A stretch of DNA of 48,831 nucleotides. Source: Bacteroidia bacterium (lineage in GTDB: Bacteria > Bacteroidota > Bacteroidia > CAIKAF01). The stretch covers positions 1-48,831 of the forward strand of contig JAUHWY010000026.1 of the NCBI GenBank assembly GCA_030427255.1, written 5' to 3'. A program made the position numbers and the translations under genes. Shown piece after piece: positions 1-43,981 of the stretch (position 1 is its first letter; each line of letters opens with the position of its first letter). The notes beneath the pieces are model-generated. The model saw only the letters and a program-made list of their open reading frames with translations. It was not told the origin of the DNA and made no database searches.

Positions 1-361
1 AAGTGATGGGCCCTGCTTTTTTAGAAGATTAGAAATTCTATCCGCCCCATGCCTGCGGCCTCCTAAGCCCAACAGGCGGGAGGCTAATTGGTGCCGGGCG
101 TTCCGCAAAGCTCCACACCGGCAACAATGGAGACCATTGATGCGGTGCGTTTTCGCGACAAATTAAGGCGCAGACAAATTGAGAGGCCGGAGTTTACCCA
201 TTGTAAATGAGGACCTTGAAATTTGGCTGCAACGCAAAGTTGCCGCTAGAATAGCATCGCATCAATAGTCTCCAAAAGCCTCCCAAGCCCATTACACTCA
301 GGGGGTCCTCCGTCCGGGCGGGGGGCCATTCTATTAAAATCCTTGAACCTTTCGACCGAAC
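1..361. other. GC-rich intergenic hairpin region
   Basis: No gene is visible. The stretch is GC-rich and carries a short inverted repeat, GGGAGGCT at 78-85 with AGCCTCCC at 277-284. This pair encloses a copy of the 143-bp repeat (130-272). The right edge (about 300-345) holds the motif CGGGGGGCCAT followed by an AT-rich stretch, also seen at the right edge of the hairpin region near 10800. It lies 3' of the minus-strand gene that ends at 362, so it could also take part in ending that transcript. No U-run terminator of standard form is seen. Confidence 0.55.
130..272 (-). repeat. 143-bp inverted-repeat element, copy A
   Basis: This is one of four copies of exactly 143 bp in the window and the only one in reverse orientation. 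It begins GAGACCATTGATGCG and ends CGCATCAATAGTCTC, so the ends form a terminal inverted repeat of about 15 bp with one mismatch. The inside carries two small hairpins conserved in all copies: a GGCAAC/GTTGC stem, and a TTTAC/GTAAA stem whose loop differs from the other copies (AATGG here on the reverse strand, AATTA elsewhere). No open reading frame is conserved. It is either a non-autonomous (MITE-like) repeat or a structured RNA. This is the most diverged copy. Confidence 0.8.
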
Positions 362-13676: not shown

Positions 13677-14159
13677 CGAAACCATTGACCCGCTGCTGTT
13701 CCGGCGGCTATTTTGTCCCAATGCGGCACACTCAACAGCATGGCTGTAACAGAAAAGCAAGCCATAAATCATCTGTGCGTGTGGATGCCTTTCTTGTGCC
13801 TAGGCCGGGATAGGTCCAAATTTCAAACCTGTGTTGCATCAAAGGTCTTTCATTGGAAGACGCGCCCCGGGGCGAACGGAAAGCCCGGAGTTTAGGGCCT
13901 TAGGGTAGCGAGACTGTTGATGCGAGTCTATTCTTGCGGCAACTTTGCGTTGCAGCCAAATTTCAAGGTCCTCATTTACAATTAGTAAACTCCGGCCTTT
14001 CAATTTGTCTGCGCCTTAATTTGCCTTGAAAACGCCACGCACCAACGGTCTCGAAGCAAGAGCTGAGGAGGCCCCAGACCCATCTGGGGACCCCGGAAGC
14101 CTTGCTTCCCTTAGGCCCTAAGCGAGGACTTGGAGGGAGCACCGGATTAGGCGCCCAAA
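13677..14159 (+). repeat. 483-bp repeat, copy 1
   Basis: This segment and the one at 20753-21235 are both 483 bp and differ at only about a dozen positions by eye. It consists of an about 175-bp left part found nowhere else in the window, then hairpin element H2 from 13853. H2's stem arms TTAGGGCCTTAGGG (13892-13905) and CCCTTAGGCCCTAA (14108-14121) enclose a 143-bp element and two further small hairpins (CCCCAGA/TCTGGGG and GGAAGC/GCTTCC). A 60-codon frame in the left part is kept in both copies, but I do not regard it as a gene. It lies between convergent genes. Confidence 0.85.
13910..14052 (+). repeat. 143-bp inverted-repeat element, copy B
   Basis: Exactly 143 bp, from GAGACTGTTGATGCG to CGCACCAACGGTCTC. 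It sits in the loop of hairpin element H2. The flanking bases are C and G, extending the inverted repeat by one pair. Confidence 0.85.
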
Positions 14160-20752: not shown

Positions 20753-21235
20753 CGAAACCATTGACCCGCTGCTGTTCCGGCGGCTATTTTGTCCCAATGC
20801 GGCACGCGCAACAGCATGGCTGTAACAGAAAAGCAAGCCATAAATCATCTGTGCGTGTGGATGCCTTTCTTGGGCCTAGGGCCGGATAGGTCCAAATTTC
20901 TAACCTGTGTTGCATCAAAGGTCTTTCATTGGAAGACGCGCCCCGGGGCGATTGGAAAGCCCGGAGTTTAGGGCCTTAGGGTAGCGAGACTGTTGATGCG
21001 AGTCTATTCTTGCGGCAACTTTGCGTTGCAGCCAAATTTTAAGGTCCTCATTTACAATTAGTAAACTCCGGCCTTTCAATTTGTCTGCGCCTTAATTTGC
21101 CTTGAAAACACCACGCATCAACGGTCTCGCAGCAAGAGCTGAGGAGGCCCCAGATCCATCTGGGGACCCCGGAAGCCTTGCTTCCCTTAGGCCCTAAGCG
21201 AGGACTTGGAGGGAGCACCGGATTAGGCGCCCAAA
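20753..21235 (+). repeat. 483-bp repeat, copy 2
   Basis: The second copy of the segment at 13677-14159, with the same length and orientation and differing at roughly a dozen positions. It contains hairpin element H3 (from 20929) with stem arms at 20968-20981 and 21184-21197 around a 143-bp element. It lies between the 3' end of murI and the small unknown gene. The two copies flank the RND operon as direct repeats about 7 kb apart, so recombination between them would delete the operon. Confidence 0.87.
20986..21128 (+). repeat. 143-bp inverted-repeat element, copy C
   Basis: Exactly 143 bp, from GAGACTGTTGATGCG to CGCATCAACGGTCTC, flanked by C and G. It sits in the loop of hairpin H3 inside the second 483-bp repeat. 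Confidence 0.85.
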
Positions 21236-38565: not shown

Positions 38566-40212
38566 ATGATGAAACGTCTTATTTTTTTATTGGGTATGGT
38601 TTGCCTGCTTGGGCAAAGCGCAACCGCACAAGGGGTAACTATTGGCAGCAACAACCCTCCAGACCCCTCTGCGGTATTGGATATGCAATCCAGTCAGTCG
38701 GGGGTTTTGATTCCGCGCCTAAGCAATCAACAGCGCAACGGAATTGCCAACCCGGCGGTTGGTCTACAGATTTACAACACAGATACCGAGTGTTTTGAAG
38801 CCTATTTCCCAACAGGTTGGAAAGCAACTTCTTGCGATTGCAATCAGGCGCCTCCGGCCCCCGCACAAATCAATGGGCCCAGTCAAGTGTGTCCGGGAGA
38901 CGCATTGGTGCTTTTTGTGGTACCTTCTGTTCAAGGAGCAGCTTCCTACCAGTGGACGATAGACAATCAAGACACTTTGGTTGGAAATGCCACAGGGGAC
39001 TCCATTTTAGTGAATTTTTCCAACAGTCCGGGCATTCGAAATATTAGTGTAGTGGCGGTTAACAGTTGCGGCAGCTCAAATGCAATAAACCTATCGGTAG
39101 ATGTGAGTAACCCTTCGGCTGCTTTTACGTATAGCCCCAGCAGCCCCAGCGTCAATAATGCCGTACAGTTTCAAGCAACTCAGGCAAATTTAACCTACCA
39201 ATGGACTTTTCAGAATGGAACTCCGGGCTCCTCGGTTTCTCAGACCCCATCCGTTACCTGGACACAGGCGGCTACCGTAAATGTTCAATTGGTGGTAACC
39301 AATCAAAACGGGTGCACCGACACTAACCAGCAATCCGTAACCATAAGCACTTGTGCGCCCACCCAATGGCAGTTTACTACTTGCGGGCAAACCGGAAGAA
39401 CAGGACCCAGTCAAAGCCAATGCAACAATACTTACGGCAGTGGAGTAGTTTCGGTTTCCGGTGGAATTCAGACGTGGACGGTGCCTGCAACGGGGAACTA
39501 TACTATTGAAGCAGCCGGCGCTCAGGGAGGCCCCGGAGGTCGGGGAGCTGTTGTTCGCGGGGTATTTTCTTTGACCGCAGGTCAACCCATTAAAATTTTG
39601 GTTGGCCAACAAGGCGGCGCAGGTTCCGGAGACGGTGGGGGTGGAGGAAGTTTTGTAACCCAGTCGAACAATACCCCTATAATTATTGCCGGAGGTGGTG
39701 GCGGACGAACAAACTATGGTGTTTCTGATGGTACAACCAACACCTGCGGAAGAACAGGTGATGGGGGATCACCCGGATCTGGCGGTTGCAATGGCAATGG
39801 TGGAAACGGGGCACAAAGTACCGGGAATTCCGGTGGCGGCGGCTTGTTGACCAATGGTACGCAGGGAACGTATAGTTCTACCCCGGGTTTGGCCTTTGTA
39901 AATGGCGGTGCAGGTGGAGCCGGCTCCAATAATCCAAACGTTGGTTTTGGTGGTTTTGGCGGCGGCGGCGGTGGAAACGACGGCGGGCACTCCGGCGGCG
40001 GCGGCGGTTATTCGGGCGGTGGCGGCTCGGGTAATGGCGGTTCGGGTTCCGGCGGTGGCGGTGGCTCCTTTATTGCTAGTGGAGCGAGCAATGTAGCCAC
40101 AGGAAATGGGCAGTATGCCAACAGCAGCAGCTTTGGTGGCCAACCCATTCAAAACTTGAACACCGTAAATACCGGGGATGGGTATGTAACCATTACCCGG
40201 ATTTGTCCTTAA
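38566..40212 (+). CDS. exported glycine-rich (ALK-type) protein, paralogue 3
   Basis: A 548-residue third paralogue. The N-module is more diverged (VLIPRLSNQQRNGIANPAVG, ending KATSCDC). The Ig-like domains are conserved, and the glycine-rich domain opens TCGQTGRTGPSQSQCNNTYG and WTVPATGNYTI. The C-terminal tail is again YVTITRICP. It ends the operon. No clear terminator follows; instead a 1.2-kb gene-free region full of small palindromes begins. An ATG three bases downstream (MKRL) could be the real start. Confidence 0.82.
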   Translation: MMKRLIFLLGMVCLLGQSATAQGVTIGSNNPPDPSAVLDMQSSQSGVLIPRLSNQQRNGIANPAVGLQIYNTDTECFEAYFPTGWKATSCDCNQAPPAPAQINGPSQVCPGDALVLFVVPSVQGAASYQWTIDNQDTLVGNATGDSILVNFSNSPGIRNISVVAVNSCGSSNAINLSVDVSNPSAAFTYSPSSPSVNNAVQFQATQANLTYQWTFQNGTPGSSVSQTPSVTWTQAATVNVQLVVTNQNGCTDTNQQSVTISTCAPTQWQFTTCGQTGRTGPSQSQCNNTYGSGVVSVSGGIQTWTVPATGNYTIEAAGAQGGPGGRGAVVRGVFSLTAGQPIKILVGQQGGAGSGDGGGGGSFVTQSNNTPIIIAGGGGGRTNYGVSDGTTNTCGRTGDGGSPGSGGCNGNGGNGAQSTGNSGGGGLLTNGTQGTYSSTPGLAFVNGGAGGAGSNNPNVGFGGFGGGGGGNDGGHSGGGGGYSGGGGSGNGGSGSGGGGGSFIASGASNVATGNGQYANSSSFGGQPIQNLNTVNTGDGYVTITRICP

Positions 40213-40434
40213 TAAAGGATTGAGGTTTTTATTCAAATTTTGGCCTTAGCGTAATATGTGACGAGGAACTGAGCTCTTTTGGCGTCCCTTCCAAAGGAGG
40301 CGGCCTCTATTTTGTCTTGAAAGCCCCTTAGTCTAGGGTTTTTGAAGCAAAAATTTATTTTAAATTGACCAAGGACGCGGCATTACCACCTTGGGTTAAT
40401 TTAATGGCTGCATTTCTCCCATTGGTACGTAAAT

Positions 40435-40970
40435 CGTTCGGCTTGGAACGCCATTCGTTCGGCTTGGAACGGAAACCCTTCGGCTTGGAAGAAAAACCGT
40501 GCAGCACGGAACGAGACTGTTGATGCGATGCTATTCTGGCGGCAACTTTGCGTTGCAGTCAAATCTCAAGGTCCTCATTTACAATTAGTAAACTCCGGCC
40601 TTTCTATTTGCCTGCGCCTTAATTTGCCTTGAAAACGCAACGCATCAACAGTCTCGGAAGGAAATCGTTCAAGCTCGAATGAGGATGCATTTGACTTAGC
40701 ACCGGTTTGGCTCGGTTTGGAACGGGAATGGTTCGGCCTCGAACGGTTTTTGTTCGGGCTCAAATGCATCCCTATTTGCGGCTGAACGCTTAGCGTTCAA
40801 GGCTAAATGCACGGCGTTCCAAGCTGAATGCTTAGCATGCAAGGCTAAATGCTTTCCGTTCGACTGTAAATGATTGGGTGTTTAAGGCTGAACGCAGGGT
40901 GTTCCACGCTGAATCGTTGGTGTTCCTCTTTTTATGCTTGGCGTTCCAAAGGGCATGGTTCTCATTCCAC
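40435..40970. repeat. array of degenerate mini-palindromes, period about 21 bp
   Basis: Small imperfect hairpins recur at a strikingly regular spacing. The first block has CGTTCGGCTTGGAACG at 40435 and 40456, then variants at 40477 and 40498. After the inserted 143-bp element it resumes at 40666. The second block has AACGCTTAGCGTT at 40785, ATGCACGGCGTT near 40807, ATGCTTAGCAT near 40828, then units near 40849, 40869, 40891, 40912, 40934 and 40955. Spacers are variants of AAGGCTAA/CAAGCTGA. Stem sequences change in both arms together (AACGC/GCGTT, ATGC/GCAT), which suggests selection for pairing or for a dyad site. Between about 40687 and 40785 the phase is less regular. Confidence 0.75.
40513..40655 (+). 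repeat. 143-bp inverted-repeat element, copy D
   Basis: Exactly 143 bp with a perfect 15-bp terminal inverted repeat, GAGACTGTTGATGCG and CGCATCAACAGTCTC, flanked by C and G. It is not inside an H-type hairpin but interrupts the palindrome array. The flanks next to the extended element read GAA on both sides, a possible 3-bp target duplication. Excising it restores the array spacing to about 20-21 bp. Confidence 0.87.
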
Positions 40971-41170
40971 AGCCCATGATTTTGCTTGTAGGAGGGGTGT
41001 TTTTTTTGCCCGGAGGGGTCGACACAGCCCCTAAAGGCAGCTAAAAGACTCGGACTTGAAGCCTTGGGCAGGGTTTAGGGATGTAGTGGTTGTACGCAGG
41101 CATAATATTCTATGGTCTTTGGCACCATTTCAGGGTTAAAGCTCAGGGTATGGATTCGGTTTCGGAGCTT

Positions 41171-41328
41171 AAGCGCCCCGGGGCGCGGCGGTACCCCGCA
41201 AAGGACAAAGGGCTAGTTTTTTGAGGCTTGGCAACGCGGCGCTTTGCAAGCGCTTGCCAAGCCCAAAAAAACTGCCCTTTGGACTGCGGAGTATAGCCAA
41301 GCACCGGAAAAGGCGCCCCAAAAAAAAA
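41171..41328 (+). repeat. GC-rich hairpin element H5
   Basis: A family member with the longest stem. Arms run 41196-41289 and pair as CCGCA, AAAGGGC, AGTTTTTT and GGCTTGGCAA with their complements, separated by one- to six-nt interruptions. The left side has GCGCCCCGGGGCG, as in H2 and H3, and the right edge is GCACCGGAAAAGGCGCCCC plus nine A residues. The A-run is also the T-run of the minus-strand terminator. Confidence 0.7.
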
Positions 41329-41347
41329 CCGCCCCAAAATGGAGCGG
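41320..41347 (-). terminator. rho-independent terminator of the Calx-beta/Fn3 gene
   Basis: On the minus strand CCGCTCC (41347-41341) pairs with GGGGCGG (41335-41329) through one T-G wobble around a 5-nt loop, followed by nine T residues (41328-41320). It lies 28 bp past the stop of the minus-strand gene. Confidence 0.75.
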
Positions 41348-41374
41348 CTTTTAAGGTTCAGGAACGGGTTAAGC

Positions 41375-43981
41375 TTATTTGTGGAGCAGAATGCGTACGG
41401 CTTTTCCGCTGCTGTGGCGCAGGATATACATTCCGGCTTGCAGGCCTTGAGTGGCCAGTTGTCCTTGAATGTTTTGGCGCAGGGTGCGTCCGGAAATGTC
41501 GTTTAAGGTCCAAAGTCCATCGATTCCATCAATGCGGATGATGTCTCCAACTTTAGCAGGGCTAGGATAGACCCTAAGGTGGTTTTCACCTTGCTGGTTG
41601 ATGCTCAAGTTGGTAGTTGTTTCATCGCCGGTAAGCGCTTGGGTGGTGTAAACCTCCGGATTACAGTCGTATTCAATAACACTAAAGTGGTATGTGGTAT
41701 TGGGCTGCAAATTGGTAACGGTTACCCAGTTTGAGGTGCCATTGTACACCACAAAACCAGAGCCTAAGTCAGTACCGGTAGTGCCAAATGCTGCGTTGGC
41801 AGGATAGTTTGTGCCGTCTTGAGGAAGGTCGGCAACGGCTTGGCCTTCGCGAGCAATGACCAAACGGCTAGAACCATTTCCGTTGGTCCAAGTGACATCC
41901 ATAGAAGTGTTTGCAATGCTGGAGAAGCTTAGCGTTGTGGCAGCTTGTGTAGGTGCCGGGCAAGCAGATGGGGTAGTAAAGCTATGCAGTGCAGGAGTTG
42001 TAGTAAGGTAATCTTCCGGGTTGCAATCGAATTCGAAAATGGCAACATGGTAGGTGGTGTTTGGTTGTAAGTTGCTTACGCTTACTGAATTTCCTGCGGA
42101 TCCGGAGTAAACTACATAAGCGGTTCCTAGTTCAGAACCGGCTGTTCCGAAGCTGGGGTTTGGGGTATAGCCGGTGCCATCTACCGGGAAATCAGCAACC
42201 GCTTGACCTTGTCTAAGGACCACTACGCGGCCGGTTCCATTTCCATTGGTCCAGGTAATGGTGGCCGAGTTGCTGGTAAGGTTAGAAGAGGTTGCGTTGG
42301 AAGCCTGTTGGGTAGGTTCAGGACAAGGCGTTAAAATGGGTGTAAAAACTAGGCTGTCGATGGCCATTCCGTCATCGCTACCTTGAATGTCTTGGTCTCT
42401 CCAGCGAACCCAAATGGTATCACCGCTCAATACAGGTGAGGTAAGGGTAATGGTATCTAAGAATGCTTGACCATTGGCGGGCAGGTTGCCGTCGAGGTTG
42501 GTGCCGGAACCGCCAAATATTGGGGCTGCAAAATCCAAAGCATTGAAAGGAAGCCAAGTTCCGTTGCTTAGGTCGGTAGCGTTGAGGGAGTATTCGAAAT
42601 AAAGAGAATCTCCTCCTGCATTACCTCCGGTGCGCCATTGCTCTCCTTTGTAAGAAACCACCAATTTGTCTATAGTGGAGCCTGTGTTGTTTTGCAAAGC
42701 AGCGCCCAATAGAATGGTGGAGATGGAGCCTGTGGTAAGTGATCCAAAGGCTCTTTCGGCTACGCCGTTGGTGCCAAAGGAGTAAGAGTCGCCTGAGAAT
42801 GAGCTGCCGTCGCCGGCATCGTATAGGGAGTCTCCTGAGCCGGATTCATTTACATAAATACCTCTTGGGTAGGTTCCAAGGCCGGTGCCCACGGTATCCA
42901 TTTGGTCGAAGGTTTCGAGGGCTGTGGGAGTTCCCAAGCTTGCTAAGTCAATGAACTGATCGTTGTCGGTAATGGTAAGTGTGTCGGTAGAAGGGCTGCC
43001 AATGCTTAATCCGGAGGATAAGTTTTGGATTCCTACAATCAATTGTTCGGGTAATTCGTTGAGTGCGTCGTCAGAAACAGTAAGTGTTACCGAACCTGTG
43101 GTTTGTCCATTAGCAATAGAAATGGTGCTGTTGGAAAGGTTGTAATCTCCGGGGGTGATGTTTGAGCCGTATACGTTTAAATCCACAGTTTCGTTTGCGG
43201 TTACGGCGCTGCTAGCGGTGGCAGTGATGGTGATTTGAGAGCCTGCGGCCTCTGAGCCCGTGTTGGAGGAGAAAGAAAGACTAACGGGAATACCGGTATT
43301 TACTGATCCTGCAACCGAAACAGAGTCTACGGCAAAGCTGGGGCGCGAACCACCACCCAAGGAGTCTTTACTAATCCAGCGCAATTGAACCACGGCTTGG
43401 TTGTCGCACTGAGGAGGCAACACAATAGAGAAGTTGGTTGGGTTTAGAGGAGTAGTGCCGCTGGTTTGTCCAACGCCGTTACTGGCATAAGACGTTCCTT
43501 GAACATCGGTAAAGCTACCTGTAGTGCCTACTCTGTATTGCAAACCGGCCGCATTGATGCGCGTATTGTTGGAACCATTGAAGGGGTCCCGAATGACCAT
43601 CATGGTATAGTTAACGGTAATGTTGGACAGGCCGGTGGTGACGATTGCGGTGGCAACGCCATTTGCTGTACCTGAGGAATTTAGCCAACCTATTTTTCCT
43701 AGAAAGTCATATACGCCGTTTCCTGAGGAAGAGGCAGTGCCTCCGGAAACGCTTTGGTCACCACTAGGCGCACCGGTGGTATAAGAAGAGGAGCTTCCTC
43801 CGGGAATAACCCAACCTTGCCATCCTGCGGGGTAGGAGGTTGAACTGCCGTTGTAGGAGCTGAAGTTTTCGCTGTAAGGCAAAGATTGGGGAGTCGGGTT
43901 TGTGGCTTGTGCGGACAATTGCTTTCCAAAGGGAAGGCCAATTAACACAAGGCTCGTAAGAAATAAGTACCTGTTTCGCAT
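41375..43981 (-). CDS. T9SS-exported Calx-beta and fibronectin-type protein
   Basis: An 868-residue surface protein. In order: signal peptide (1-25), a jelly-roll-like domain opening LPYSENFSSYNG (about 33-235), a Calx-beta domain ending DTLTITDND (about 240-342), a second jelly-roll-like domain (about 348-555), two similar Fn3-like repeats, each with LQPNTTYH and FDCNPE/YDCNPE (about 560-790), and a T9SS type A sorting domain (about 800-868, YPSPAKVGD...ILRHSSGKAVRILLHK). Calx-beta modules bind calcium. It is probably an adhesin or large surface protein. Alternatives such as an inactive nuclease-like fold cannot be excluded for the jelly-roll parts. Confidence 0.8.
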   Translation of the reverse strand: MRNRYLFLTSLVLIGLPFGKQLSAQATNPTPQSLPYSENFSSYNGSSTSYPAGWQGWVIPGGSSSSYTTGAPSGDQSVSGGTASSSGNGVYDFLGKIGWLNSSGTANGVATAIVTTGLSNITVNYTMMVIRDPFNGSNNTRINAAGLQYRVGTTGSFTDVQGTSYASNGVGQTSGTTPLNPTNFSIVLPPQCDNQAVVQLRWISKDSLGGGSRPSFAVDSVSVAGSVNTGIPVSLSFSSNTGSEAAGSQITITATASSAVTANETVDLNVYGSNITPGDYNLSNSTISIANGQTTGSVTLTVSDDALNELPEQLIVGIQNLSSGLSIGSPSTDTLTITDNDQFIDLASLGTPTALETFDQMDTVGTGLGTYPRGIYVNESGSGDSLYDAGDGSSFSGDSYSFGTNGVAERAFGSLTTGSISTILLGAALQNNTGSTIDKLVVSYKGEQWRTGGNAGGDSLYFEYSLNATDLSNGTWLPFNALDFAAPIFGGSGTNLDGNLPANGQAFLDTITLTSPVLSGDTIWVRWRDQDIQGSDDGMAIDSLVFTPILTPCPEPTQQASNATSSNLTSNSATITWTNGNGTGRVVVLRQGQAVADFPVDGTGYTPNPSFGTAGSELGTAYVVYSGSAGNSVSVSNLQPNTTYHVAIFEFDCNPEDYLTTTPALHSFTTPSACPAPTQAATTLSFSSIANTSMDVTWTNGNGSSRLVIAREGQAVADLPQDGTNYPANAAFGTTGTDLGSGFVVYNGTSNWVTVTNLQPNTTYHFSVIEYDCNPEVYTTQALTGDETTTNLSINQQGENHLRVYPSPAKVGDIIRIDGIDGLWTLNDISGRTLRQNIQGQLATQGLQAGMYILRHSSGKAVRILLHK

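Follow-up and report, generated by a model that had tools for sequence, protein, structure and literature searches.

A single-locus noncoding 21-bp tandem array in a Bacteroidia bacterium and its sister species: a putative row of phased protein-binding half-sites

The window analysed here is a stretch of 48,831 nucleotides from one contig of a 3.2-Mb Bacteroidia genome assembly. A degenerate tandem array (40425–40967) is located within an intergenic region of 1162 bp, between two convergent genes (Table 1). The upstream gene encodes a glycine-rich protein with PKD domains. The downstream gene encodes a multidomain protein of 868 amino acids, the C-terminal tail of which resembles a T9SS sorting domain by eye, and its product is 92% identical to the orthologue in the sister species G004. 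This sister species is represented by the metagenome-assembled genome (MAG) of Flavobacteriales bacterium isolate M30B58 and is the only close relative in the set of genomes searched. The stretch beside the array (41161–41374) is 91–92% identical in G004 and includes a 27-bp inverted repeat (41208–41234/41254–41280). Short pieces of this stretch recur elsewhere in both genomes, and it is possibly a terminator or a member of a small repeat family.

Table 1. Coordinates of the array, the inserted element and the neighbouring genes (window positions)
Feature	Position	Strand	Description
Upstream neighbour, PKD-domain and glycine-rich protein	38566..40212	+	ORF; Pfam PKD_6, PKD
Unit starts left of the element	40425, 40446, 40467, 40488, 40509		Unit 40509 is cut by the element
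Left part of array	40425..40512	.	Units 40425, 40446, 40467, 40488 and first bases of unit 40509; linker mostly GGCTTG; orthologous in G004
Left target-site duplicate	40508..40512	.	GGAAC
MITE-like element	40513..40655	.	143 bp, inserted in unit 5, not part of the array proper; inverted ends GAGACTGTTGATGCG / CGCATCAACAGTCTC
Right target-site duplicate	40656..40660	.	GGAAG; one mismatch to GGAAC
Middle part of array	40661..40783	.	Rest of unit 5 and units 40677, 40699, 40720, 40741, 40762; most degenerate
Unit starts right of the element	40677, 40699, 40720, 40741, 40762, 40784, 40805, 40826, 40847, 40869, 40890, 40911, 40932, 40953
Right part of array	40784..40967	.	Units 40784, 40805, 40826, 40847, 40869, 40890, 40911, 40932, 40953; linker mostly in opposite orientation, AAGGCT/CAAGCT
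Downstream neighbour, 868-aa multidomain protein	41375..43981	-	ORF; Pfam Calx-beta-like, fn3/purple acid phosphatase N-terminal-like

An earlier note on this region had described about 18 mini-palindromes recurring every 21–22 bp with an inserted element among them, and both observations hold: 19 degenerate units are present once the MITE-like element is removed. Counted without the element and its target duplication, 14 of the 18 steps between units measure 21 bp, three measure 22 bp and one measures 20 bp. The mean step is 21.1 bp in the window and 21.2 bp in G004, which is about two turns of B-DNA. Autocorrelation of the joined array gives an identity of 0.55 at lag 21, against a best-lag average of 0.31 and a maximum of 0.36 in 1000 dinucleotide shuffles (all lags 5–89). 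By part, the lag-21 identity is 0.75 on the left, 0.48 in the middle and 0.58 on the right, with echoes at lags 42 and 63–64. The linker between boxes switches orientation from the left part to the right part (Table 1). Stops are present in all six frames, with 2–6 per frame, in the window array as well as in the G004 array, and the array is noncoding.

The element that interrupts the fifth unit belongs to a dispersed family with 49 matches in the same genome and 62 in G004 (fragments included), amounting to dozens of copies, three of which lie elsewhere in the window (130–272, 13909–14053, 20985–21129). Other copies carry the 5-bp target duplications AAATA, ATTAA and GATCT. The family was not found in the other members of the genus that were searched. 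Its ends resemble GAGACTGTTGCA, given in PMC4596501 as the ends of the Porphyromonas gingivalis elements ISPg4 and MITEPgRS. The element interrupts the array and is missing from the orthologous array in G004, and is therefore younger than the array.

The consensus of the unit is GAAYG-N5-CGTTC-N6, which consists of two inverted 5-bp boxes separated by a centre of five positions and followed by a linker of six. Information content at the box positions is 0.90 bit in the window and 1.02 bit in G004, compared with 0.19 and 0.25 bit for the centre and 0.26 and 0.20 bit for the linker. The column profile has dyad symmetry, the observed score being reached by none of 5000 column permutations in either species. 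The variance of column conservation is 13.4 in the window and 6.1 in G004, exceeding the highest values in simulated uniform decay (8.6 and 5.0 respectively), although this simulation is supportive only since it ignores the relatedness among units. The earlier note also held that the two arms change together from unit to unit, and this did not stand. In the window array, the arms of one unit are complementary at 66% of positions and arms drawn from two different units at 60% (p=0.036); the corresponding values in G004 are 65% and 64% (p=0.52). What the arms show is conservation of a single consensus rather than joint variation, and the pair of units quoted for the claim (AACGC TTA GCGTT and ATGC TTA GCAT) is an exception.

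A DNA search of 40 relatives located an orthologous array in G004 alone, at the identical intergenic place. No 21-bp array was found at the homologous gene loci of four other species of the genus. The two orthologous arrays differ by whole units, namely one 42-bp block of two units and one block of about four units, so that units have been gained or lost. Among 11 orthologous unit pairs, 12 of 110 box positions differ, along with 10 of 55 centre positions and 18 of 66 linker positions. Divergence is thus 11% in the boxes and 27% in the linkers, and it is 31% in the adjoining flank (40969–41160, 69% identical). The boxes diverge less than the rest of the unit (p=0.015) and less than the flank (p=6.5e-5), in a test that is partly circular because the boxes were defined on the very units compared and that rests on few ortholog pairs; linker and flank do not differ (p=0.64). 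The boxes are specially conserved relative to their surroundings, with the same circularity. The complete array is not, since its identity of about 80% lies under the 88% that the two species average across their other intergenic regions. In the two neighbouring genes, identity at four-fold sites is 56–60%.

The array sequence is single-copy in its own genome and likewise unique in the genome of G004. Across the 3.2-Mb genome there are two perfect boxes, both of which lie within the array, and thus neither a regulon nor a candidate protein emerges. An operator of a regulon is ruled out on the same ground, and the two other perfect boxes of G004 are isolated and outside arrays. A two-unit pattern was searched first against 295 class genomes and then against 395. 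Beyond the species pair, the matches were isolated or apparently coding, and no further array with the GAAYG-N5-CGTTC box was recognised in the 395 genomes. Viral contigs gave eight matches, mostly duplications of two or three units, plus one 21-bp array in an IMG/VR phage-like contig (L222:4854–5063). The units of the latter are like GAACGATAATCATTCGCACCC with a similar box, and it adjoins terminase-like and NlpC-like genes. The viral matches, this array included, are probably convergent.

Other noncoding arrays were identified within the class. Genome G280, from another family, contains in the 130 kb read (L072, L073, L107–L112) about 20 intergenic noncoding arrays whose periods are 21, 42, 63 or 84 and whose units are unrelated to one another, and almost no other long noncoding period. 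Dyad symmetry is significant in six of 19 G280 arrays tested, where about one is expected. One 21-bp array of G280 carries a similar box (GGAACG-N5-CGTTCC or CGATTC), plausibly a chance likeness among its many arrays. Across about 1 Mb taken from roughly 60 further class members, noncoding arrays had mixed periods. The genome under study was sampled over some 0.85 Mb, about a quarter of its length, and 21 bp is not a dominant period there; one other clear noncoding 21-bp array was found (C50, L083:1264–1384) in addition to heptamer arrays. C50 also contains a period-42 array (L083:2807–3158) whose units are unrelated to those of the period-21 array. Dispersed 7-bp tandem arrays of the ATGAATG type (L014:984–1110, L143:3086–3235, L091:11086–11194) often adjoin GACGGGA..TCCCGTC inverted repeats.

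A targeted literature search (PMC8161180, PMC6749651, PMC4596501) located a repeat class to compare with the array. Subirana and Messeguer (PMC8161180, where an earlier survey is also cited) report on bacterial tandem repeats that are noncoding, constant in size and variable in sequence, measuring 20–21 or 52 nt in Bacillus and 20–23 nt in many groups. The repeat length equals two helix turns, and the authors suggest a polymerising DNA-binding protein or small RNAs for repeats whose function is unexplained. The defining features are a repeat length of 20–23 nt, at least 4 repeats and at least 60% of repeats of one length (±1). With 19 units, steps of 20–22 bp throughout and no frame free of stops in either species, the array fits this described but unexplained class by size and noncoding nature, and the statement in the earlier note that no known repeat class names it is wrong at the class level. 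Likenesses extend to the two-turn length and to a sequence private to the species pair. Unlike the described repeats, the array has a significant dyad, conserved boxes with free spacers and one conserved place, and 21-bp arrays are not abundant in its genome; palindromes are not mentioned in PMC8161180. Another feature of the class, the occurrence within one genome of multiple arrays that share a size but differ in sequence, is strongly developed in G280, which represents a very rich case, and is less clear in the genome under study, given the one other clear noncoding 21-bp array in the quarter sampled.

BrickBuilt, a minisatellite MITE of Porphyromonas gingivalis, is dispersed in 19 copies and has a leader, a tail and terminal inverted repeats (PMC4596501). 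It shares with the array an intergenic location in Bacteroidota, tandem units (23 nt in BrickBuilt) with conserved and non-conserved positions, and predicted long stem loops. The array is nonetheless not BrickBuilt-like, since it is single-copy and was found to have no leader, tail or terminal inverted repeats of its own; the terminal inverted repeats present belong to the MITE, which here is a later insertion and not the carrier. A CRISPR array is ruled out by the repeat structure, as the units are degenerate and contiguous, with no spacers. Phased operator or iteron-type protein-binding arrays consist of repeated dyad half-sites in helical phase. The array resembles these in both respects, but no cognate protein and no replication or partition gene was identified for it, and its genome contains no further sites.

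Three other accounts of the array were weighed. The earlier note had offered a hairpin-forming RNA as one of its two interpretations, in which the array is transcribed and the inverted boxes fold into repeated hairpins or one long imperfect hairpin. Structure prediction at first sight favours this: in each species, and for either strand, the predicted fold energy of the complete array is better than that of dinucleotide-shuffled sequences (z about -4.9 and -5.3). One giant hairpin, which these scores suggested, was ruled out by the unit-permutation control, in which units in random order gave energies equal to or lower than the native order. Taken separately, neither the left nor the right part has a fold energy better than that of its shuffles. 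The signal therefore comes from the self-complementary units and not from an arrangement built for folding, and the compensatory arm changes and dependence on native order expected of a structured RNA of repeated hairpins were not found. With no Rfam family at or near the gathering score for the array and no promoter-like signal beyond chance, a transcribed RNA is improbable. Less probable still is that the array is what is left of a gene encoding a heptapeptide-repeat protein (21 bp being seven codons). Short open stretches do give heptads such as SFGLERH-SFGLERK, but every frame is interrupted in both species, the reading frame changes at steps of 20 and 22 bp, and conservation tracks the dyad symmetry rather than codon position, which largely refutes this account.

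A functionless satellite is a serious possibility. In this account, slippage or unequal recombination would have multiplied a 21-bp sequence with a palindromic core, and the copies would have been decaying since, with occasional gain or loss of units. The whole-unit differences between the species are consistent with such a history, as are the uniqueness of the array in both genomes, the fact that it was recognised nowhere else in the 395 genomes searched, its identity below the intergenic average and the existence of comparable tandem arrays without known function (PMC8161180). Uniform decay, on the other hand, yields neither boxes of 0.9 bit beside spacers of 0.2 bit nor the observed variance, and the lower divergence of the boxes than of linker and flank also argues against it.

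Of the several readings, phased protein binding appears best supported by these sequence comparisons, with a decaying neutral satellite close behind. The array, which is old, noncoding and confined to a single locus, would then be a tandem row of phased half-sites for a putative oligomerising DNA-binding protein, a reading to which we assign a probability of roughly 0.45. This was the other interpretation in the earlier note, and it agrees with the two-turn spacing, the dyad, the conserved boxes between free spacers, the slow change of the boxes relative to the flank and the shared position in G004. Each unit can be described as two 5-bp half-sites in inverted orientation, GAAYG and CGTTC, with five free bases between them and about six before the next pair. 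The half-sites alternate in orientation every 10–11 bp, placing all of them on nearly one helix face over about 380 bp. We infer that the array may work as double-stranded DNA, offering a row of sites to an oligomerising protein that would coat or bend the stretch between the two convergent genes. As a guess, the resulting filament could be structural or could block read-through. Counting against the phased binding array are its occurrence in two species only, its identity of about 80% compared with the 88% intergenic average, and the lack of a regulon.

The constant 20–23-nt size of noncoding bacterial satellites is a standing puzzle. It is conceivable, though rather doubtful, that some of them are phased dyad arrays for a putative oligomerising DNA-coating protein that would read the two-turn spacing while the sequence drifts between lineages, with this array and the dyad arrays of G280 as examples. 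The present array is ordinary within its class and unusual in what it reveals. Being old and decayed, it displays the positions that have been kept, a pair of inverted 5-bp boxes spaced by half a unit and separated by free bases, and it may thus turn the vague idea of a spacing-dependent protein into a concrete probe with defined mutants.
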